From positions 310,001-374,000 of the forward strand of contig NZ_BNAD01000001.1 of assembly GCF_014653115.1 (NCBI RefSeq): a stretch of 64,000 bases of DNA. The letters run 5' to 3'. The stretch's first letter is position 1. Every line of letters begins with the position of its first letter. The notes beneath the pieces are model-generated. The model saw only the letters and a program-made list of their open reading frames with translations, was not told where the DNA came from and searched no databases. This document shows positions 6,528 through 57,228 of the stretch, piece by piece. This stretch comes from Nocardioides flavus (ex Wang et al. 2016). Lineage in GTDB: Bacteria > Actinomycetota > Actinomycetes > Propionibacteriales > Nocardioidaceae. The translations under genes were made by a program, and so were the position numbers.

Positions 6528-6625
6528 GGGGTAGTCCAGTGGCGAGCTGTCGTCCCGGCCGGGTAGTCCAGTGGCGAGACGTCGTTCCGGCGGGCCTTCG
6601 GCAGCGTTTGGCCACTGGACTACCC
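6528..6625. repeat. Palindromic element, family A, with duplicated left arm
   Basis: Two left arms (GGGTAGTCCAGTGGC at about 6529-6543 and 6561-6575) face one right arm (GCCACTGGACTACCC, 6611-6625). The inner pair is a perfect 15-bp inverted repeat with a 35-nt loop. It fills the gap between the aminotransferase stop and the hydroquinone reductase start. A second copy with both arms doubled lies at 24607-24738. Confidence 0.85.
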
Positions 6626-6638
6626 GGGGTCGAACGAG

Positions 6639-12389: not shown

Positions 12390-12405
12390 CGGCCTGCCGG
12401 CCCGG

Positions 12406-13701
12406 TCACAGCGCCTGGTCGAAGACCCGCAGCAGCCGCTCGGCCTTCCACTGCGTCTCCGCCCACTCCTCGGGGAGGTCGGACTGCACGGTGATGCCGC
12501 CGCCGGTGCCGAGGACCCAGGTGCCGCTGCCGTCGGTGACCAGCGAGCGGATGACGACGCCGAGGTCGGCAGGGCCGTCGCCGCTGATCCACCCGAACGC
12601 CCCGGCGTACGCGCCGCGCGGCGTCGCCTCGACCTCCTCGATCACCTCCATCGTCCGGCGCTTCGGCGCGCCCGTCATCGACCCTGCGGGGAACAGCGCG
12701 CGCAGCGCCGCGACGGTCGAGACGTCGTCGCGGAGCCGGCCGCGGACGGTGGAGACGAGCTGGTGCACCGACTCGTACGACTCGACCTGCATCAGGGCGG
12801 GCACCTCCACCGAGCCGACCTCGCAGACCAGTGACAGGTCGTTGCGGAGCAGGTCGACGATCATCAGGTTCTCCGCGCGCGTCTTGGGCTCGCGCGCCAG
12901 TCGACCGCGCTGCTCCTCGTCCTCCTCGGGAGTGGCACCGCGGGGCGTGGTGCCCTTGATCGGCTTCGTCTCGAGGTGCCGGTCGGCGGTGACCAAGGCG
13001 TACCGCTCCGGCGAGCTCGACAACAGCCAGGCGCGCGCGCCGGGCACGTCGTGCTGGAGGAACCCGCTGTACGGCGCGGGGTTGAGCGCGCGGAGGCGGA
13101 TGTAGGCCGCGACGGGGTCGAGGTCGGACGTGCGGGTGAGCCGGTGGGTGAGGTTGACCTCGTAGGAGTTGCCGGCGTGGAGGTGCTCCTGGACGCGGCC
13201 GAAGGCGGCGGCGTACGTACTGGGAGGGGTGTCCTGACTCCTGGAGGCCGTTGCAACCCCCTCCAGGAGCGAGAATCCCCGCTCGAGCGGGGATTCTGCG
13301 GAGGCCCCCGCCCGCCCCTCGGCAACCACCGAAGGGTGCTCGAAGACCCGCACCTCCCCCGGCCGCATCCAGACCGCGTCGGGCAGGAACGGGTCGGGGG
13401 TGGCGGGCAGGTCGGTGCGGGCGGCGTACCCGAGGTAGCCGAACCACTGCTCCCCCGCGGCGATCCGCTCCTCGAGCACGGTGAAGACGTCGTCGCCGAC
13501 GACCTGCGTGGACCCGCCGGCGTGCAGGGTGACCTCGCGCCGGGCAGCCGACCACGACAGGGACGGGTCGTCCTCGTGGAGCCAGCCGATGATCGACCGG
13601 CGACCGGACCACTCGCGGGCGCCGCCGCCGTCGAGCCAGAAGCAGCGCGGGCGCAGTGACGCCACGTCGCGGAAGAAGGACACCGGATCCATCTCGCTCA
13701 C
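12406..13701 (-). CDS. pabB: Aminodeoxychorismate synthase component I, carrying a repeat insertion
   Basis: A 431-residue chorismate-binding enzyme that aminates chorismate to 4-amino-4-deoxychorismate for folate, using ammonia from the PabA partner. Family signatures include SSSPERY, TKPIKGTTPRG, ENLMIVDLLRNDL, the catalytic-core LFPAGSMTGAPKRRTMEVI and GAYAGAFGWIS. The GTG at 13701 overlaps the pabA stop (GTGA), which decides the start; an ATG at 13692 is the alternative. Positions 13229-13300 form two adjacent hairpins that add about 24 residues (ESPLERGFSLLEGVATASRS) in frame, in a surface segment before the core domain. Anthranilate synthase component I is a less likely alternative. Confidence 0.88.
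   Translation of the reverse strand: MSEMDPVSFFRDVASLRPRCFWLDGGGAREWSGRRSIIGWLHEDDPSLSWSAARREVTLHAGGSTQVVGDDVFTVLEERIAAGEQWFGYLGYAARTDLPATPDPFLPDAVWMRPGEVRVFEHPSVVAEGRAGASAESPLERGFSLLEGVATASRSQDTPPSTYAAAFGRVQEHLHAGNSYEVNLTHRLTRTSDLDPVAAYIRLRALNPAPYSGFLQHDVPGARAWLLSSSPERYALVTADRHLETKPIKGTTPRGATPEEDEEQRGRLAREPKTRAENLMIVDLLRNDLSLVCEVGSVEVPALMQVESYESVHQLVSTVRGRLRDDVSTVAALRALFPAGSMTGAPKRRTMEVIEEVEATPRGAYAGAFGWISGDGPADLGVVIRSLVTDGSGTWVLGTGGGITVQSDLPEEWAETQWKAERLLRVFDQAL
13238..13296. repeat. Double-hairpin element inside pabB, family G-related
   Basis: A 10-bp inverted repeat (CTCCTGGAGG, 13238-13247; CCTCCAGGAG, 13260-13269) encloses a GTTGCAAC core. It is followed by a perfect 24-bp palindrome at 13273-13296 (half-site GAATCCCCGCTC). 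The core resembles the CCGTTGCAACGG palindrome of the element at 42655-42741. The pabB frame runs through it without a stop. Confidence 0.8.
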
Positions 13702-14321
13702 TCGGGGTCCCCGCGGCGTTGTTCGGGGGAGCGGAGCGGAGGAGAAGAACGTCGTGGGGTGCGATCGAGGAAGTTCCTCACGATCGCCTCGCCGTGCTCG
13801 GACAGCACCGACTCGGGGTGGAACTGCACGCCCTCCAGCGGCAGGTCGACGTGCCGCACGCCCATCACGACGCCGTCCTCCGACCACGCCGTGGCCACGA
13901 GGGCGGCTGGCAGCTCGACGGCGCCCAGCGAGTGGTAGCGCACCGCGGCGAACCCCTGCGGCAGCCCGGCGAGCACGCCGGCCCCGTCGTGGCGGATCGA
14001 GGCGACCTCGCCGTGCGCCGGCCGCAGGCGCGAGACGGTCCCGCCGTACGCCGCCACCAGCCCCTGCATCCCCAGGCACACGCCGAGCACGGGCCGCCTC
14101 CCGTCACGGAGCACCGCGGTGCCCACGGAGAAGTCCGCCTCGGAGTCGGGGCTCCCCGGCCCCGGGGACAGCACCACGTGCGAGTGCCGCAGCACGTCCT
14201 CGGCACCGACCTCGTCGTGCTGCACCACCCGCGGCAGCTCGCCCGTCACGGCGGCGACGAGGTGCACCAGGTTCCACGTGTAGGAGTCGTGGTGGTCCAC
14301 CACGATCACGTCCGGTCGCAC
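13698..14321 (-). CDS. pabA: Aminodeoxychorismate synthase glutamine amidotransferase component
   Basis: A 207-residue class I glutamine amidotransferase. It shows the N-terminal DHHDSYTWNL, the oxyanion loop LSPGPGSP, nucleophile Cys82 in GVCLGMQGL, and the His-Glu dyad in QFHPESVLSEHGE. It releases ammonia from glutamine and passes it to the chorismate-binding subunit. Its stop overlaps the pabB start by 4 nt. TrpG and PabA cannot be told apart by sequence alone, but coupling to pabB favours folate synthesis; dual use is possible. Confidence 0.9.
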   Translation of the reverse strand: MRPDVIVVDHHDSYTWNLVHLVAAVTGELPRVVQHDEVGAEDVLRHSHVVLSPGPGSPDSEADFSVGTAVLRDGRRPVLGVCLGMQGLVAAYGGTVSRLRPAHGEVASIRHDGAGVLAGLPQGFAAVRYHSLGAVELPAALVATAWSEDGVVMGVRHVDLPLEGVQFHPESVLSEHGEAIVRNFLDRTPRRSSPPLRSPEQRRGDPE

Positions 14322-14336
14322 GCAGCGACCCTAGTG

Positions 14337-16040
14337 CTAGCGGCGCACTGCCCGGCACGCCTCCGCCACCGGCTGGTCACCGGTCTCCCGGCAGCCGTCG
14401 AACGCGGTGAGCCTCTCCATCAGCGCGGCCACCTCGTCGCGCCGCGACTTCCGGGCGAAGTCGTTGCGCCGCTCGAACCGGTCCTTGCGGTAGGAGTAGA
14501 ACTCATAGCCCCAGGTCGTCCGGTTGCGCCGCGGGTCGAGGTCGAAGCGCGCCAGCAGCGCCGTACGGCTCCGCACCGCCGTGAACGACGGGATCCGGTC
14601 GAGCTCGGAGCCGGTGAAGGCGGCGTCGGGGTCGTCGCCGGTCAGCGTCTGCTGGGTGTGCTCGAGGAAGGCGTACGACTGGCGCACCAGCGACGGCTGG
14701 GTCAGCGTCGGCACCAGCGAGAGGCCGCTGCGGAACGGTGCCGGCGACAGCCCGGCCAGCTCCTCGAAGGTCGGCGCGAGGTCGATGTTGCTGGTGACCT
14801 CGCGGCGCTTGCCCGGGACCACGCCCGGGCCGGTGACCAGCAGCGGGACGCGGGAGTCGGTGTCGTACGGCGTCCCCTTGCCGCGGCCGAGGCCGTTCTG
14901 TCCGAGGTGGAAGCCGTTGTCGGAGGTGAGCACGACGTAGGTGTGGGGCCCGACGGTGCGCAGGATCCTCGACACCAGGCGGTCGGCCGACTGCGCCATC
15001 CGCGCCCGGTCGCGCAGGTCGCGGACCGCGACGGCGGCCGGGAGCGTCCGCACGGTGTTCCAGGCGCGCGCCCGCGAGCCGTCGGCCAGGCGCGGACGGT
15101 TGTCCCGGCGCTGGTCGGCGAAGCCCGGCAGGTCGGCGACCGTGAGCTTGCGGCAGGCCACCCGGCCACAGCTGCGCGGGCCCGACCTGTCGCGGAACAT
15201 CGGGGGGAAGAGCGGGTCGCCGGCGTAGTGCGGCTCGGGGTTCACCCGGTTGTGCGGGGCGTAGAGCGATACCTCGAGGAAGTAGGGCGCGTCGGAGGCC
15301 TCGTTGGCCTTCACGAAGTCCATCGCGAGGTCGCCGATGACGGTCCCGGCGTACGCCTCGTCCTTGGCCGCGTCGCTCGCGCTCGCGGGCGGCGCCGGGT
15401 GCTGCACCAGCCGCAGGCGCTGGCCGTCGAGCGTGGTGCTGGCGAAGTCCCAGCCGTCGTAGGCGGACCCGAAGACGGTGTTGAAGGTCGTCCATCCCGG
15501 CACGACGGGCGGCAGCGCCCGGCCGGGCGACCACTCGTACTCGTTGAGGAACTTGCCGATGAAGCCGGTGTGGTAGCCCGCCTCCTGCAGCCGCACGTTG
15601 AACGCCCGCTCGGGGTTGCCGTTGGTGTCGTAGGCCGGCCACCCGCCGAGGCGCGAGGTGCCGCGGTTGGAGGTGTTGGTACGCACCCCGGTCTGGTGGG
15701 GGTACTGCCCGGTGAAGAAGCTCGACCGCGACACGCAGCACAGCGAGTCGGTGACGAAGGAGTGCGGATAGCTCGCACCGGCCTTGCGCATGCGCTGTGC
15801 CGACCGCATCGTCTGCACGAGGTCCATCGAGAAGTCGTCGAGCATCACCACGACGATGTTGGGCCGCCTGGCGCGCGCGGCCGCGGGGGCGAGCTCGCCC
15901 ACCGCCGACGCCGTGCTCTCCGTACGCGGCGGCGCGACGCCGTCCGGCCTCCGCTCCCCGCCGGGCGGCCCGGTAACCGCCCCGCATGCCGTCAACGCCA
16001 GCAGGCACAGGCCTGCCACGGCTCCCCTGATCTTCCGCAC
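14337..16040 (-). CDS. Lipoprotein sulfatase with CCVSR active-site motif
   Basis: A 567-residue type I sulfatase. The N-terminal signal ends in a lipobox, LTAC with Cys19, so it is probably lipid-anchored outside the membrane. NIVVVMLDDFS near 61-71 gives the two metal Asp residues. The nucleophile region is DSLCCVSRSSFFTGQYPHQTGV. Related N-acetylglucosamine-6-sulfatase-like proteins read CCPSR here, where the first Cys becomes formylglycine; this copy has Val103 in place of Pro. The distal metal motif SDNGFHLGQNG and the Lys of RGKGTPYD are present. The substrate is unknown. The gene lies 15 nt upstream of pabA on the same strand. Confidence 0.87.
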   Translation of the reverse strand: MRKIRGAVAGLCLLALTACGAVTGPPGGERRPDGVAPPRTESTASAVGELAPAAARARRPNIVVVMLDDFSMDLVQTMRSAQRMRKAGASYPHSFVTDSLCCVSRSSFFTGQYPHQTGVRTNTSNRGTSRLGGWPAYDTNGNPERAFNVRLQEAGYHTGFIGKFLNEYEWSPGRALPPVVPGWTTFNTVFGSAYDGWDFASTTLDGQRLRLVQHPAPPASASDAAKDEAYAGTVIGDLAMDFVKANEASDAPYFLEVSLYAPHNRVNPEPHYAGDPLFPPMFRDRSGPRSCGRVACRKLTVADLPGFADQRRDNRPRLADGSRARAWNTVRTLPAAVAVRDLRDRARMAQSADRLVSRILRTVGPHTYVVLTSDNGFHLGQNGLGRGKGTPYDTDSRVPLLVTGPGVVPGKRREVTSNIDLAPTFEELAGLSPAPFRSGLSLVPTLTQPSLVRQSYAFLEHTQQTLTGDDPDAAFTGSELDRIPSFTAVRSRTALLARFDLDPRRNRTTWGYEFYSYRKDRFERRNDFARKSRRDEVAALMERLTAFDGCRETGDQPVAEACRAVRR

Positions 16041-16170: not shown

Positions 16171-16234
16171 GGTAGTCAGGGACGTTCTGGTCGGGTCTTG
16201 GCCCGTTGCGCCTACGAGAACGTCCCTGACTACC
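16171..16234. repeat. Palindromic element, family C
   Basis: A perfect 18-bp inverted repeat: GGTAGTCAGGGACGTTCT at 16171-16188 and its complement at 16217-16234, loop 28 nt. It starts with the same GGTAGTC as family A but then differs. It lies between the sulfatase start and the stop of the PhzE-like gene, both on the minus strand, so it may also act as a terminator for the latter. Confidence 0.85.
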
Positions 16235-24606: not shown

Positions 24607-24738
24607 GGTAGTCCAGTGGCGTCCTGTCGGGCCCCTTCGGTAGTCCAGTGCCGAGGTGTCGTCCGGAAGCCCGCCGCACAGCAGGTCGCCACTGGACTAC
24701 CCCGAGCCCGCCGCACAGCAGGTCGCCACTGGACTACC
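24607..24738. repeat. Palindromic element, family A, with both arms duplicated
   Basis: Two left arms (GGTAGTCCAGTGGC at 24607-24620; GGTAGTCCAGTGCC at 24639-24652) face two right arms (GCCACTGGACTACC at 24688-24701 and 24725-24738). The right half is a tandem duplication of a 34-bp unit with period 37 bp (starting 24668 and 24705). It sits between two divergent genes, so it is not a simple terminator. Confidence 0.88.
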
Positions 24739-38644: not shown

Positions 38645-38727
38645 GCACCATGAAGGCAGTTCGCTGCCCGGGCACCGCCGTCCACGCTCAGGCGCCGACT
38701 CGGCGTCCCCAACTGCCTTCATGGTGC
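38645..38727. repeat. Palindromic element, family B (copy 2)
   Basis: A perfect 17-bp inverted repeat, GCACCATGAAGGCAGTT (38645-38661) and its complement (38711-38727), around about 49 nt that share CCACGCTCAGG with copy 1 at 10133. It fills the gap between the convergent lipoprotein and acyl-CoA dehydrogenase genes and may also serve as a shared terminator. Confidence 0.85.
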
Positions 38728-39908: not shown

Positions 39909-41854
39909 GCCTGCTCCTCGACTACTGCCAGAACCTCCCCGGACGCGACCTGCGCACCGGGCTCGACGTGGATCGCGGTGACCGTGCCGTCGTGCGGCGC
40001 GGTCACGGTGTGCTGCATCTTCATCGCCTCCAGCACCAGCACAGCGTCGCCGGCAGCGACCTCGGCGCCGGCCTCGACCTTCACCGCCACGACCGTGCCG
40101 GGCATCGGCGCGAGCAGCGAGCCGCTCGCGACCGCGTCGGCGGGGTCGGTGAAGCGGGGGACGTGGACGAGGGCGAGGTGCCCCCACGGCGAGTCGACGT
40201 CGACTCGGTGACCCGTGACGCGTACGTCGTGGCTGGAGCGCACCCCGCCGTGGTCGACCACGACCCGCCAACCCGTGTCGGTCGGCTCCGCGGCGACGAG
40301 GCGGACCCCGTGGACCTCGTCGTGGAGGTCCACCATGACGGCGCCGGCCCGGTCGTGGCGCCATCCCACTCGTACTTCGGTGCCACGCAGGTCGAAGGCG
40401 ACGACCTGGGGCGCGGAGTGGACGTTGCGCCAGCCGGTCGGGATGCGCCGTTGCACCGCGCGCCCGGCGACGGACCGCTCGACCCAGGCCATCGCGGCCG
40501 CGAAGAACGACGTGGCCTGCTGCTCGGGCGTGCCCGGCACCGAACCGCCCTGCAAGGAATGCAGGTCCTCGCCCAGGAACGCAGTGCTGACGTCCCCGCC
40601 GAGGAACTCCTCGTGGCCGAGCACCTCGACCAGCAGGTCCCGGTTGGTGGTCAGCCCGTGCAGGCGGGCACGACGCAGCACGCCGGCCAGGCGGCGGGCG
40701 GCCGCCTCGCGGGTCGGCGCCCACGAGACGACCTTGGCGAGCATCGCGTCGTAGTGCGTGGAGACCTCCGAGCCCGAGGCGAAGCCGGACTCGACCCGGA
40801 TGCCCGGCTCGGCCGGGATCTCGAAGGCGGTGAGCCGGCCGCTCTGCGGCTGGTAACCGGCGGCGGGGTCCTCGGCGTAGAGGCGCACCTCGATGGCGTG
40901 GCCGCGCGGCGCGCCGGCCGGCTCCGGCGTGCGGCCCTCCGCGACGGCGAGCTGCTGGGCGACCAGGTCGACCCCGAAGACCTCCTCGGAGACGGGGTGC
41001 TCGACCTGGAGGCGCGTGTTCATCTCGAGGAAGAAGAACCGGTCGGCCTCGGCTTCGTAGAGGAACTCGACGGTGCCGGCGCCGCGGTAGTCGATCGCCG
41101 CCGCGGCCGCCCGGGCGGCCTCGTGCATCGCCGCGCGGGTGGCCTCGGGCAGGCGCGGGGCGGGCGCCTCCTCGACGACCTTCTGGTGGCGACGCTGGAT
41201 CGAGCAGTCGCGCTCGCCGTAGACCTCGACCCCGCCGGGGTGACCCATCACCTGGACCTCGACGTGACGGCCGCGCTCGACGTACGGCTCGACGAAGACG
41301 GTGCCGTCACCGAACGCCGACGCGGCCTCGGCCTCGGCGGTGGCGACCTCCCGCGCGAGGGCGTCGAGCGAGCGCACGATGCGCATGCCGCGCCCGCCGC
41401 CACCGGCGCTGGCCTTGACGATCAACGGCAGGTCGGCCTCCGTCGGCTCGGCCGGGGCCTCCAGCACCGGCACGCCGGCCGCCGCCATCAGCCGCTTGGC
41501 CTCGATCTTGGAGCCCATCGCGTGGATGGAGGCGGGCTCGGGCCCGACCCACGTCAGCCCGGCGGCCTGCACGGCGCTCGCGAAGTCGGCGTTCTCGGAC
41601 AGGAAGCCGTAGCCGGGGTGGATCGCGTCGGCGCCCGTACGACGAGCAGCCTCGAGGACGAGGTCGACGCGCAGGTAGGTCTCGCCGGGCGCGTTGCCCG
41701 GCAACCGCACCGCGAGGTCGGCCTCGGCGACGTAGGGCAGGTCGGCGTCGGCGTCGGCGTGCACCGCCACCGTCTCGATGCCCAGGGCGCGGCAGGTGCG
41801 GAAGACGCGGCTGGCGATCTCGCCACGGTTGGCGACGAGGAGTCTGGTGATCAT
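39905..41854 (-). CDS. Biotin-dependent acyl-CoA carboxylase alpha subunit (biotin carboxylase + BCCP)
   Basis: A 649-residue subunit. The biotin carboxylase domain (1-450) begins MITRLLVANRGEIASRVFRT and has the ATP loop KASAGGGGRGMR and FLEMNTRLQVEHPVSE. A linker domain (about 460-570) follows. The biotinyl domain ends the protein with VLEAMKMQHTV, where the Lys carries biotin. With the beta subunit it carboxylates an acyl-CoA; methylcrotonyl-CoA, geranyl-CoA or propionyl-CoA are the family options. Gene order (AtuA, dehydrogenases) favours a branched or terpenoid acyl-CoA. It is coupled on both sides by ATGA overlaps. Confidence 0.9.
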   Translation of the reverse strand: MITRLLVANRGEIASRVFRTCRALGIETVAVHADADADLPYVAEADLAVRLPGNAPGETYLRVDLVLEAARRTGADAIHPGYGFLSENADFASAVQAAGLTWVGPEPASIHAMGSKIEAKRLMAAAGVPVLEAPAEPTEADLPLIVKASAGGGGRGMRIVRSLDALAREVATAEAEAASAFGDGTVFVEPYVERGRHVEVQVMGHPGGVEVYGERDCSIQRRHQKVVEEAPAPRLPEATRAAMHEAARAAAAAIDYRGAGTVEFLYEAEADRFFFLEMNTRLQVEHPVSEEVFGVDLVAQQLAVAEGRTPEPAGAPRGHAIEVRLYAEDPAAGYQPQSGRLTAFEIPAEPGIRVESGFASGSEVSTHYDAMLAKVVSWAPTREAAARRLAGVLRRARLHGLTTNRDLLVEVLGHEEFLGGDVSTAFLGEDLHSLQGGSVPGTPEQQATSFFAAAMAWVERSVAGRAVQRRIPTGWRNVHSAPQVVAFDLRGTEVRVGWRHDRAGAVMVDLHDEVHGVRLVAAEPTDTGWRVVVDHGGVRSSHDVRVTGHRVDVDSPWGHLALVHVPRFTDPADAVASGSLLAPMPGTVVAVKVEAGAEVAAGDAVLVLEAMKMQHTVTAPHDGTVTAIHVEPGAQVASGEVLAVVEEQA

Positions 41855-43545
41855 GGCCGGAACACCCCGAATCGGTCGGCGCCCCGGATCGGCGCGTTGG
41901 CGATGACGCTGAGGCAGATCGCGAGCACCGTACGGGTGTCGCGCGGGTCGATCACACCGTCGTCGTAGAGCATCCCCGAGAGGAAGTAGGGCAGGGACTG
42001 CTCCTCGACCGAGGCCTCGACGTAGTCCTTGACGCCCTTAAAGCCCTCGGCGTCGAAGACCTCGCCCTTGGACTCCGCGGACTGCTGGGCGACGATCTCG
42101 AGGACGCCGGCGAGCTGGGCCGGGCCCATGACGGCACTCTTGGCGCTGGGCCAGGTGAAGAGGAACCGGGGGTCGAAGGCGCGGCCGTTCATGCCGTAGT
42201 TGCCGGCGCCGTACGACGCGCCCATGATCACGCTGAGGTGCGGCACGGTGCTGTTGGAGACCGCGTTGATCATCATCGCGCCGTGCTTGATGATGCCGCC
42301 CTGCTCGTAGTCCTTGCCGACCATGTAGCCGGTGGTGTTGTGCAGGAAGAGCAGCGGGGTGTCGGCCTGGTTGGCCAGCTGGATGAACTGCGTCGCCTTC
42401 TGCGCCTCCTCGGAGAACAGCACGCCCTGCGCGTTGGCGAGGATCCCGATCGGACGGCCGTGCAGCTGCGCCCAGCCGGTGACGAGCGAGGTGCCGTAGA
42501 GCGGCTTGAACTCGTCGAACGGCCGGCCGTTGTGCTCGCTCGTGCCGTCGACGATGCGGACGATGACCTCGCGCGGGTCGAACGGCTCCTTGAGGTCCGT
42601 CGGGATCAGGTCGAGCAGGCCCTCGGGGTCGGCGTCGGGCTCGGCCCAGGTGTCGGAACCACCGGTTGACCGGTGGTTCCCGAGCTCCTCGCCCGTTGCA
42701 ACGGCCGAGAACCCGCTGGAAAGGACTGGAACCCCAGCGGGCTTGCGCCGGTTGAGGCGCGCCACGATCCGCCGCCCGATCCGGATGGCGTCGTGCTCGT
42801 CCTCGGCGAGGTAGTCGGCCAACCCGGAGACCCGGGCGTGCATCTCGGCACCGCCGAGCGACTCGTCGTCGGACTCCTCGCCGGTCGCCATCTTCACCAG
42901 CGGCGGACCGCCGAGGAAGACCTTGGCCCCGCCGCGCACGAACACGGTGTAGTCGCTCATGCCGGGGACGTACGCCCCGCCGGCCGTCGAGTTGCCGAAG
43001 ACGAGCGCGATCGTGGGCTGACGCCGGGCGGAGGCCCGCGTGAGGTCGCGGAAGAGCTTGCCGCCGGGGATGAAGATCTCCTTCTGCGTCGGCAGGTCCG
43101 CACCACCGGACTCGACCAGCGAGATCGTCGGGAGGTTGTTCTCCTCGGCGATCTGCGAGGCGCGGAAGATCTTCTTCACCGTCCAGGGGTTGGAGGCGCC
43201 ACCCTTCACGGTGGGGTCGTTGGCGCTGATCATGCACTCGACGCCCTCGACGACGCCGATGCCGGTGACGACCGAGGCGCCGACGGTGAAGTCGGACCCC
43301 CACCCCGCCAGGGGCGACAGCTCGAGGAAGGCGCTGCCCGGGTCGACGAGCAGCTCGATCCGCTCGCGCGCGGTCAGCTTGCCGCGCGCGTGGTGCCGCG
43401 CGACGTACTTCTCGCCGCCGCCCGCGACCGCGACCGCGTGCTGCGCGTCGAGGTCGGCGAGCTTCTCCAGCATCGCCTCGCGATTGCCGGGTCTCGATAC
43501 GCCTCCTCGTTCCTCGTCGGCTACTCGACCACCGAGGGCTGTCAT
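41851..43545 (-). CDS. Acyl-CoA carboxylase beta subunit (carboxyltransferase) with two repeat-encoded insertions
   Basis: A 564-residue carboxyltransferase. The N-lobe has SANDPTVKGGASNP, VESGGADLPTQKEIF and NSTAGGAYVPGMSDYTVFV; the C-lobe has LFLHNTTGYMVG, MMINAVSNSTVPHLSVIMGASYGAGNYGM and FLFTWPSAKSAVMGPAQLAGVL. It transfers the carboxyl group from biotin to an acyl-CoA. The ATG at 43545 overlaps the previous stop (ATGA). Residues 5-19 (GGRVADEERGGVSRP) are encoded by a dispersed 44-bp repeat. A second element at 42655-42741 encodes about 29 residues in the linker between the lobes. Both keep the frame. Confidence 0.9.
   Translation of the reverse strand: MTALGGRVADEERGGVSRPGNREAMLEKLADLDAQHAVAVAGGGEKYVARHHARGKLTARERIELLVDPGSAFLELSPLAGWGSDFTVGASVVTGIGVVEGVECMISANDPTVKGGASNPWTVKKIFRASQIAEENNLPTISLVESGGADLPTQKEIFIPGGKLFRDLTRASARRQPTIALVFGNSTAGGAYVPGMSDYTVFVRGGAKVFLGGPPLVKMATGEESDDESLGGAEMHARVSGLADYLAEDEHDAIRIGRRIVARLNRRKPAGVPVLSSGFSAVATGEELGNHRSTGGSDTWAEPDADPEGLLDLIPTDLKEPFDPREVIVRIVDGTSEHNGRPFDEFKPLYGTSLVTGWAQLHGRPIGILANAQGVLFSEEAQKATQFIQLANQADTPLLFLHNTTGYMVGKDYEQGGIIKHGAMMINAVSNSTVPHLSVIMGASYGAGNYGMNGRAFDPRFLFTWPSAKSAVMGPAQLAGVLEIVAQQSAESKGEVFDAEGFKGVKDYVEASVEEQSLPYFLSGMLYDDGVIDPRDTRTVLAICLSVIANAPIRGADRFGVFRP
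42655..42741. repeat. Composite palindromic element inside the carboxylase gene, family G
   Basis: Three hairpins in 87 bp: a 26-bp palindrome at 42655-42680 (arm GGAACCACCGGT), the perfect CCGTTGCAACGG at 42693-42704, and CCCGCTGG/CCAGCGGG at 42712-42719 and 42734-42741. On the minus strand it aligns with the intergenic element at 52449-52532 (shared GGTTCCAGTCCTTT, GCAACGGGC and CACCGGT arms). Confidence 0.85.
43490..43533. repeat. Dispersed repeat, family F, at the carboxylase N-terminus
   Basis: A 44-bp element starting GGTCTCGATACGCCTCC and ending CTACTCGACCACC. I recognise this type as a very common dispersed repeat of Nocardioides-like genomes. Its ends resemble those of family E (GGTCTCG... 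and ...CGACCA). Here it begins 12 bp inside the coding sequence and is translated. Confidence 0.8.
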
Positions 43546-52448: not shown

Positions 52449-52532
52449 AATCACCGGTTACCCGGTGGTTCTTCGGGTTCCAGTCCTTTGCAACGGGCAA
52501 GAACCTCAGCGATCACCGGTTGACCGGTGGTC
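52449..52532. repeat. Palindromic element, family G (intergenic copy)
   Basis: Two imperfect hairpins with CACCGGT/ACCGGTGG arms (52449-52470 and 52511-52531) flank GGTTCCAGTCCTTTGCAACG and GAACC. The middle and right parts align with the copy inside the carboxylase gene at 42655-42741, which has about 16 extra bases. It lies between the PadR promoter and the end of the next ABC permease gene. Confidence 0.8.
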
Positions 52533-52541
52533 GCGACACGC

Positions 52542-54775: not shown

Positions 54776-54911
54776 CCGACCGGGCGGTTCCTTGCTGACG
54801 AATGCGCCGACCGGGCGCTTCGTGCCCGTCCCGGACGCCGACCGGGCACTTCGTGCCCGTGTCGAGGCACGAAGTGCCCGGTCGGCGGGCGTGACGGGCA
54901 CGAAGCGCCCG
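54776..54911. repeat. Nested palindromic element, family D
   Basis: A perfect 21-bp inverted repeat (54837-54857 with 54866-54886, loop 8 nt, arm starting GCCGACCGGGCACTTCG) is nested inside a perfect 19-bp repeat (CGGGCGCTTCGTGCCCGTC, 54812-54830, with 54893-54911). A third partial left arm lies at 54776-54792. It separates fadB from the ABC ATPase gene. Confidence 0.88.
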
Positions 54912-54926
54912 CTCACGTGCAGTGGG

Positions 54927-57175: not shown

Positions 57176-57228
57176 GGTGGCGGCACATTGCACGTTGAGG
57201 TGGGCGCCGGCTGCGATGTGCCGCCACC
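57176..57228. repeat. Long hairpin between fadA and fadB
   Basis: GGTGGCGGCACAT (57176-57188) and its complement (57216-57228) are perfect; with one mismatch the stem reaches 17 bp (57176-57192/57212-57228) around a 19-nt loop. In the fadA-fadB mRNA it lies 27 nt before the fadB start codon, just ahead of the ribosome site. It could be a repeat element, a processing site or an attenuator. Confidence 0.8.

Follow-up and report, generated by a model that had tools for sequence, protein, structure and literature searches.

The pabB gene of Nocardioides flavus contains, in frame, a composite palindromic segment, and the evidence supports its being a DNA element, one dispersed copy of a repeat family, and not a product of protein selection. 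The element is probably a Nocardioides repeat resembling Rickettsia palindromic elements (RPEs) and REPs, tolerated in a protein loop and copied or overwritten by a process other than Y1 transposition. Rickettsia is the main source of what is known about in-frame palindromic elements, and REPs have also been reported within genes of other bacteria; in this free-living actinobacterium something similar is common. Well over 100 species of Nocardioides are sequenced, which makes it possible to trace on a tree how such DNA is gained, lost or replaced in a single protein loop.

The palindromic element in the pabB linker

Both hairpins of the element lie in the minus-strand pabB ORF of the window (the whole 64,000-nucleotide stretch that was analysed; Table 1), in frame, as the first-pass annotation had it. 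The insert it described at 13229-13300, adding about 24 residues, is real but amounts to 82 bp (13219-13300, about 27 codons), not 72, and its 24-bp perfect palindrome is contained within a perfect palindrome of 26 bp; the 10-bp hairpin is as described, with 10-bp arms around GTTGCAAC. In order of position the element consists of the outer arm ACTGGGAGGGG, a short spacer, the core CTCCTGGAGG-CC-GTTGCAAC-CC-CCTCCAGGAG and then the terminal hairpin (H); on the coding strand H comes first and the core second. Translation across the element reads ...ESPLERGFSLLEGVATASRSQDTPPST... in frame (ORF list), and the predicted product of the translated segment is the peptide GFSLLEGVATASR. The outer arm might pair alternatively with the 3′ arm of the core. 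The arm-spacer-arm-8 bp-arm′ layout, as read from sequence alone, presumably resembles an FRT-like tyrosine-recombinase site. As minus-strand RNA the element folds into two adjacent hairpins (−43 kcal/mol, z = −3.4; 1 of 200 shuffles as good), and the 13-bp stem of this linker was reached by 0 of 20 dinucleotide shuffles; the hairpin pattern, counted twice against a shuffled mean of 0.02, was derived from the same sequence and is no independent test.

Table 1 Coordinates of the pabB element, its relatives and their host genes in the window.
Feature	Position	Strand	Basis or remark
pabB, aminodeoxychorismate synthase component I (host gene)	12406..13692	-	ORF list; Pfam PF00425, E 2e-83
Whole palindromic element, family 1, 82 bp	13219..13300	- (pabB coding strand)	Boundaries from comparing 14 same-genome copies
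Outer arm, ACTGGGAGGGG in pabB; majority ACTTGGAGGGG over 14 copies	13219..13229		Alignment
Core hairpin, 10-bp arms CTCCTGGAGG (13238-13247) and CCTCCAGGAG (13260-13269)	13238..13269		
GTTGCAAC centre of core, encoding VAT in pabB; common to second repeat family	13250..13257		
Terminal hairpin H, perfect 26-bp palindrome AGAATCCCCGCTCGAGCGGGGATTCT, encoding ESPLERGF	13272..13297		Changes on both sides of the stem in other copies and in homologues
Acyl-CoA carboxylase carboxyltransferase (beta) gene (second in-frame host)	41851..43473	-	Pfam PF01039, E 4e-137
Family 2 element read in frame within the carboxyltransferase gene; H is GGAACCACCGGTTGACCGGTGGTTCC, and the core includes GTTGCAAC	42645..42745		Element placed at 42655 by the first-pass annotation
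Intergenic family 2 element (G000:C1:362474-362539)	52474..52539		Element placed at 52449 by the first-pass annotation

The AlphaFold model of PabB (425 aa; mean pLDDT 86.3), for which the best fold matches are solved ADC synthases/PabB, has a single run of three or more residues with pLDDT below 50. This run, residues 119-150, is the linker that holds the element, located between the conserved VRVFEH and YAAAF motifs. Linker length between these motifs is highly variable across homologues, and the pabB linker tolerates very different open-frame DNA.

Among 119 distinct linkers sampled from the genus Nocardioides and near relatives, [SP]PxxRG is encoded in 33, and the DNA is palindromic in all 33 (with at most one mismatch in 32 and two in L058). 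The same residues in non-palindromic DNA, on which the first-pass annotation was prepared to give up its reading, occur in 0 of these 33 linkers, and no linker among the 119 has [SP]PxxRG without the palindrome. Its argument that such symmetry is hard to explain by protein selection is borne out by these 33 palindromes together with the at least 14 dispersed copies described below. Within H of the 33 linkers (28 distinct), pairing holds for 93.8% of stem cells (79.2% when shuffled), two-sided changes are found in 6 of 11 pairs, and covariation is 0.371 versus 0.113 in shuffles and 0.015-0.074 in slid controls; further pair types are not above shuffles (13 vs 11.5). Selection of the residues, with the DNA symmetry incidental, could account for recurrence of the encoded SPxxRG...VAT motif, but is given almost no credence here: the motif recurs because the DNA palindrome and the reading frame dictate the residues, symmetry is kept in 33 of 33 cases, 52 linkers have no palindrome by rule, and the same DNA is also found outside called genes.

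Dispersed copies and a second repeat family

A 96-base query identified at least 14 distinct places of the same family (family 1) in the N. flavus genome (G000), with E-values from 2e-44 to 7e-7 and weaker opposite-strand matches at the same 14 places; this is a lower bound, from 29 matches at E≤0.01 and the 14 places among the matches listed. The pabB copy is 76-88% identical over 73-95 bases to the 13 other copies, all intergenic. The majority sequence of the 14 is ACTTGGAGGGGnnTCCTGACTCCTGGAGGGGGTTGCAACGGCCTCCAGGAGTCAGATTCCCCGCTCGAGCGGGGAATCTGCG, and both sides have changed in 5 of 23 predicted pairs. Only the pabB copy is coding, as judged with our own codon-usage gene finder, the source of all gene calls here in place of annotation. 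A family 1 match was found in 79 of 118 genus genomes and in none of the other 39. Copy numbers for genomes other than G000 are lower bounds, the copy-search model (R1) having been trained on G000.

In G000 and three further genomes (G030, G129 and G141), 55 of the 56 fetched copies outside pabB are intergenic and one is coding. A stop codon precedes 51 of the intergenic ones by no more than 100 nt, and in 46 the H end points toward the 3′ end of a gene; 24 are between convergent genes and 2 between divergent genes; between co-directional genes H adjoins the stop in 22 of 29 copies (binomial p = 0.008). Ten of the 14 G000 sites are common to one or more of G030, G129 and G141 in the same orientation, as judged from 700-nt flanks.

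An alternative reading, considered rather unlikely, treats the elements as selected nucleic-acid sites (a signal for mRNA 3′ ends, pausing or processing, or a site bound by a trans-acting protein that itself changes fast), with concerted change arising from tracking of the same partner and the mid-gene hairpin before the catalytic domain being useful in pabB. Sites common to several species, the bias of position and orientation behind stop codons and the two-sided stem changes favor this reading; linkers and shared sites, which bear on it in both directions, are taken up below.

The pabB copy (L001) has CC-GTTGCAAC-CC, which has the appearance of an inversion relative to H, where six same-orientation G000 copies (L002, L005, L006, L009, L011, L012) have GG-GTTGCA[AT]C-GG. 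The CC form is also present in pabB of G141 and G030 and in the carboxylase copy of G141 (L161, L050 and L196). At an orthologous place in G141 (L192) and G030 (L211), two family 1 elements lie ~1.1 kb apart in opposite orientation, and opposite-strand pairs with similar spacing were also seen in G120 and G134.

A second family in the same genome (family 2; H = ACCACCGGTTGACCGGTGGT) has the layout and GTTGCAAC centre of family 1. The two further elements with which the first-pass annotation linked the pabB core are members of this family with the same layout as the pabB element; the core is exact in that at 42655 (42695-42702) but has one mismatch in that at 52449. Nineteen of 20 fetched G000 copies of family 2 are outside called genes, and the carboxyltransferase gene contains the remaining one in frame. 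The lone coding copy of family 1 outside pabB (L196, in G141) is also in the carboxyltransferase gene and, judging from the flanks, in the same loop, so that this loop holds family 1 in G141 and family 2 in G000. Across 23 carboxylase loci the loop has 18-23 residues in 10 and is longer in the others, several of them with further palindromes. pabB and the carboxylase gene are the sole coding hosts seen for these elements. Two family 2 elements are found in direct tandem, 11 bp apart, at G000:C1:646472-646652 (L317/L318).

pabB linkers across the genus

PabB matches at E≤1e-60 were obtained in 92 of 112 genomes, PabB was found in 30 of 31 further genus genomes, and 65 more loci came from named genomes. 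The resulting 165 pabB loci comprise 70 (of 98 places), 30 (of 31) and these 65; the places left out of the 98 were mostly from other genera, plus partial matches in G004, G031 and G037. L118 was excluded for a missing anchor, giving 164 loci (133 distinct), and the very distant L290-L292 were excluded before linkers were labelled. The 14 rows excluded before the counts over 119 linkers were L290-L292, Microbacterium, Kribbella, other families and a long-branched genus row (L114).

DNA rules assigned 30 of the 119 linkers to type A (H-core), 14 to B (core-H), 2 to AB (H-core-H; L177 and L236), 21 to P (another palindrome; including L058, labelled P by rule though A-like) and 52 to N (none). 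Hairpin DNA of several families is thus present in 67 of 119 linkers, a count that is probably low, as some N rows have a longer-looped or imperfect palindrome (e.g. L097, L103, L275). A perfect stem of ≥10 bp is found in 44 of 119 linkers versus 2 of 1160 equal-length windows elsewhere in the same genes, an enrichment whose Fisher p is not independent, the PabB rows being related; in an earlier linker set, stems of ≥9 bp were present in 37 of 94 linkers versus 43 of 1880 shuffles. By eye, types A, B and AB have the same residue spacing of SPxxRG, VAT and NPRxxG, and this constant spacing suggests that they derive from an H-core-H form by loss of one side.

On a tree of 130 PabB proteins built without the linker, the labels need 38 changes versus a shuffled mean of 59.6. 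Type A is clustered (10 changes vs 27.1 shuffled), types B (13 vs 13.5) and P (20 vs 19.6) are not. All eight rows of the clade around the N. flavus pabB have the element, and the insertion site is old within this clade. Near-identical PabBs elsewhere have different linkers: none of these hairpins by rule in G035, another palindrome in G137 and type B in G139. The first-pass annotation had proposed to check whether homologues lack exactly this segment; some do have a short plain linker, but many carry a related element in the same register and others an unrelated palindromic repeat. All three linkers tested that do not have the GTTGCAAC core are dispersed in their own genomes, with 112 matches at E≤0.001 in G137 (P), 37 in G008 (P) and 43 in G055 (B); these numbers include both strands and pieces, and actual copies are fewer.

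That hairpins from different families recur in one linker is a further point for selected nucleic-acid sites, but unrelated dispersed families occupy the linker and by rule such a hairpin is missing from 52 of 119 linkers. Local sharpening of palindromes, in which strand-switch (quasipalindrome) repair perfects imperfect inverted repeats of the GC-rich linker and nothing is mobile, would fit the unconstrained linker and palindromes that are near-perfect and stay so through change. It is very unlikely nonetheless: the pabB sequence is common to 13 intergenic copies and the three other linkers tested are multi-copy, which contradicts sharpening as the sole cause because local repair cannot make dispersed families. 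Quasipalindrome repair may help to keep the arms matched.

PabB of Microbacterium (L281, L284, L285 and L288) is nested within that of Nocardioides on the tree, and in one Kribbella (Kribbella rows L095/L272) a PabB resembling those of Nocardioides is accompanied by a second, more distant one. Horizontal transfer of pabB is likely.

Signs of concerted change, candidate movers and comparable systems

Family 1 appears to evolve in concert, the pabB copy included, although not cleanly. In most genomes tested, though not in all, a copy is more like its genome mates than like its same-site partner in another species. Mean identity among copies within a genome is 0.816 in G000, 0.786 in G141, 0.858 in G129, 0.811 in G134 and 0.762 in G030; copies of G134 are 0.713-0.744 identical to those of the other four genomes. 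For G000-G141, G000-G129 and G000-G030, copies at the same site are 0.736, 0.741 and 0.806 identical, near the values for random copies (0.726, 0.746 and 0.780, respectively). For 12 of 13 rows, mean identity of the flanks at these sites is 0.85-0.91; this yardstick is partly coding, and intergenic DNA drifts faster. Over five genome pairs, same-site identity (0.73-0.81) is 0.010-0.028 above site-shuffled values (p 0.028-0.105), and for G129-G141 the excess is 0.037 (0 of 2000 shuffles); there is a residual vertical signal at shared sites. Forty-three copies have a same-site partner; the copy most similar to them comes from the same genome in 26 cases, is the same-site one in 5 and is another in 12 (chance level not computed).

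The centre of H behaves similarly. Outside pabB it is GCTCGAGC in 13 of 13 copies of G000, 7 of 7 of G030, 10 of 11 of G129, 16 of 25 of G141 and 0 of 11 of G134, where it is GCACG[TA]GC. In pabB the H centre matches that of the genome mates, with GCTCGAGC in G030 and GCACGTGC in G134. Between these two genomes the linker is 64% identical, and 11 of 19 flanking 200-column windows are 94-97% and the other 8 70-94% identical; linker DNA outside the element also changes fast. In 20 genomes that supplied both a pabB linker and one or more intergenic copies (a single copy in 10 of them; G139, which supplied none, left out), the pabB linker ranks the intergenic copies of its own genome at a mean of 2.7 of 20 (chance 10.5; 0 of 20000 permutations, kinship ignored); they rank first in 10 genomes and 13th in G008, whose linker belongs to another family.

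G030 is the exception: its within-genome identity is no higher than its identity to G000 copies, random or at the same site, and its pabB copy is nearer to the copies of G000 (45.5) than to those of G030 (39.3). The copies of G129 can hardly be told apart from those of G141 (identity 0.809 for random pairs, 0.868 for same-site pairs). A CC dinucleotide precedes the centre in pabB of G000, G030 and G141 and in only 9 of 66 intergenic copies; because this pabB-specific dinucleotide persists, overwriting, if real, is incomplete. Simple descent does not explain the concerted pattern, leaving overwriting between copies, at least in part, which is preferred, or sites tracking a changing partner. Such persistent site-specific traits favor selected sites, but the G030-G134 linker differs at about one-third of positions where much of the flank differs at ~5%.

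Under the preferred reading of a tolerated, copied repeat, copies would be inserted or overwritten, wholly or partly, by ectopic copying (a new insertion into an old copy, or conversion), driven by a putative enzyme other than a Y1/RAYT transposase. Such events in pabB and the carboxylase gene would survive thanks to unconstrained loops and a reading frame that remains open, and the encoded residues would be by-products of the element. At their usual 3′-end position the hairpins may act on the mRNA end, and in pabB they would merely be translated through. A more specific version is offered tentatively, as possible but on balance doubtful: a putative non-Y1 homogenising machinery would recognise GTTGCAAC-centred hairpins and repeatedly overwrite dispersed copies, with parts of PabB and the carboxylase rewritten per species to match the intergenic repeats and unrelated families replacing one another within these loops. 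The concerted pattern seen where sites are shared suggests active copying without the known transposase, and what moves transposase-less palindromic repeats becomes a testable question.

A REP/REPIN system moved by a RAYT (Y1) transposase would likewise consist of small intergenic palindromes behind genes, as the available part of PMC3733652 describes for REPs. However, the Y1_Tnp domain (PF01797) was found in 0 of 42 genus genomes, including that of N. flavus (5 of 14 control genomes were positive), and in 2 of 67 genomes overall, both from another family of the order. There is also no regular GTAG near the H end (3 of 67 copies, with CTAC in 1; a crude count at the H-side end only); CGTC (11 of 67) and GACG (16 of 67) are not constant there, chance level not computed. 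RAYT mobilisation, extremely unlikely, was set aside for the lack of PF01797 in the 42 genus genomes.

No terminal inverted repeats are visible in the alignment of the 14 G000 copies. A BLAST search of G000 for a parent insertion sequence gave only short weak matches (E ≥ 0.3) outside the 14 places, which is no firm negative given the short ends, and the genomes compared revealed neither a mobilising enzyme nor a long autonomous copy, nor any target duplication or recent insertion matched by an empty site, no such site having been resolved to the base. Carriage by phage or plasmid was rejected, as the 82-nt consensus matched none of 50,697 phage and 72,556 plasmid records at E 0.01. A known structured RNA family was also rejected: at gathering score, Rfam identified only a tRNA (in L002) in the window and 13 loci, and the 8 matches at the element are below it (best E 0.016). 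A T-run terminator in pabB was rejected, as a scan of the pabB region (window positions 12400-14400) gave no site with a hairpin and T run.

In behaviour, compared by description and not by sequence, the closest parallel is with RPEs (Ogata et al. 2000, 2002), which the available portions of PMC10969869 and PMC3733652 describe as several families per genome, many of them in frame in unrelated genes and translated. The element here is likewise palindromic, belongs to one of several families in a genome and is found in frame in ordinary protein genes (pabB, carboxylase beta). Unlike RPEs, it is from another phylum, is an ~82-bp composite with a GTTGCAAC core, is mostly intergenic 3′ of stops and has been seen in only two coding hosts, both of which accommodate several families, with concerted signs at shared sites.

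REPs, in the accessible text of PMC3733652, are hairpin DNA behind coding regions, with some inside genes, for which a neutral presence in flexible loops or linkers is suggested; CGTC REPs apparently have no dedicated transposase, and different REPs are found at about the same recB site in two Xanthomonas species. Like GTAG and CGTC REPs, the element is hairpin DNA mostly behind genes, with some copies in genes, but the genus genomes searched have no Y1/RAYT gene, no regular tag is found near H, and the composite is longer. MITEs, including intragenic ERIC/RU units, are described in the available parts of PMC10969869 and PMC2759123 as short gene-less repeats able to add in-frame residues; this element is also short, has no genes of its own and adds residues in frame, but no terminal inverted repeats or parent insertion sequence were seen. 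Mitochondrial genes of Nematomorpha contain perfect inverted repeats of up to 284 bp (PMC6649704, available part), comparable in being perfect and within protein-coding genes but differing in size and in being mitochondrial. The case belongs with RPEs and intragenic REPs in behaviour, and differs in lineage, composite layout, a GTTGCAAC centre common to two families, two loops reused by several families and the concerted signs. Among the matches listed, no account of the element was found in literature on Nocardioides palindromic repeats or MITEs, RPE-like in-frame elements, actinobacterial stem-loops, GTTGCAAC or concerted palindromic repeats (subscription papers were outside the scope); the available text of PMC5526307 mentions only CRISPR repeats.

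Other inverted repeats are present in the window. A large intergenic one at 54809-54914, of another palindromic type, has 49-nt arms (92% complementary) that include a 22-bp perfect stem. Two others have 17-nt arms, perfect with a 49-nt spacer at 38645-38727 and 94% matched with a 19-nt spacer at 57176-57228. Inverted repeats at 6559-6627, 16171-16234 and 24639-24701 have spaced arms with GGTAGTC...GACTACC ends and look like a further dispersed family; by eye they resemble the palindrome that the L101 and L275 pabB linkers contain.
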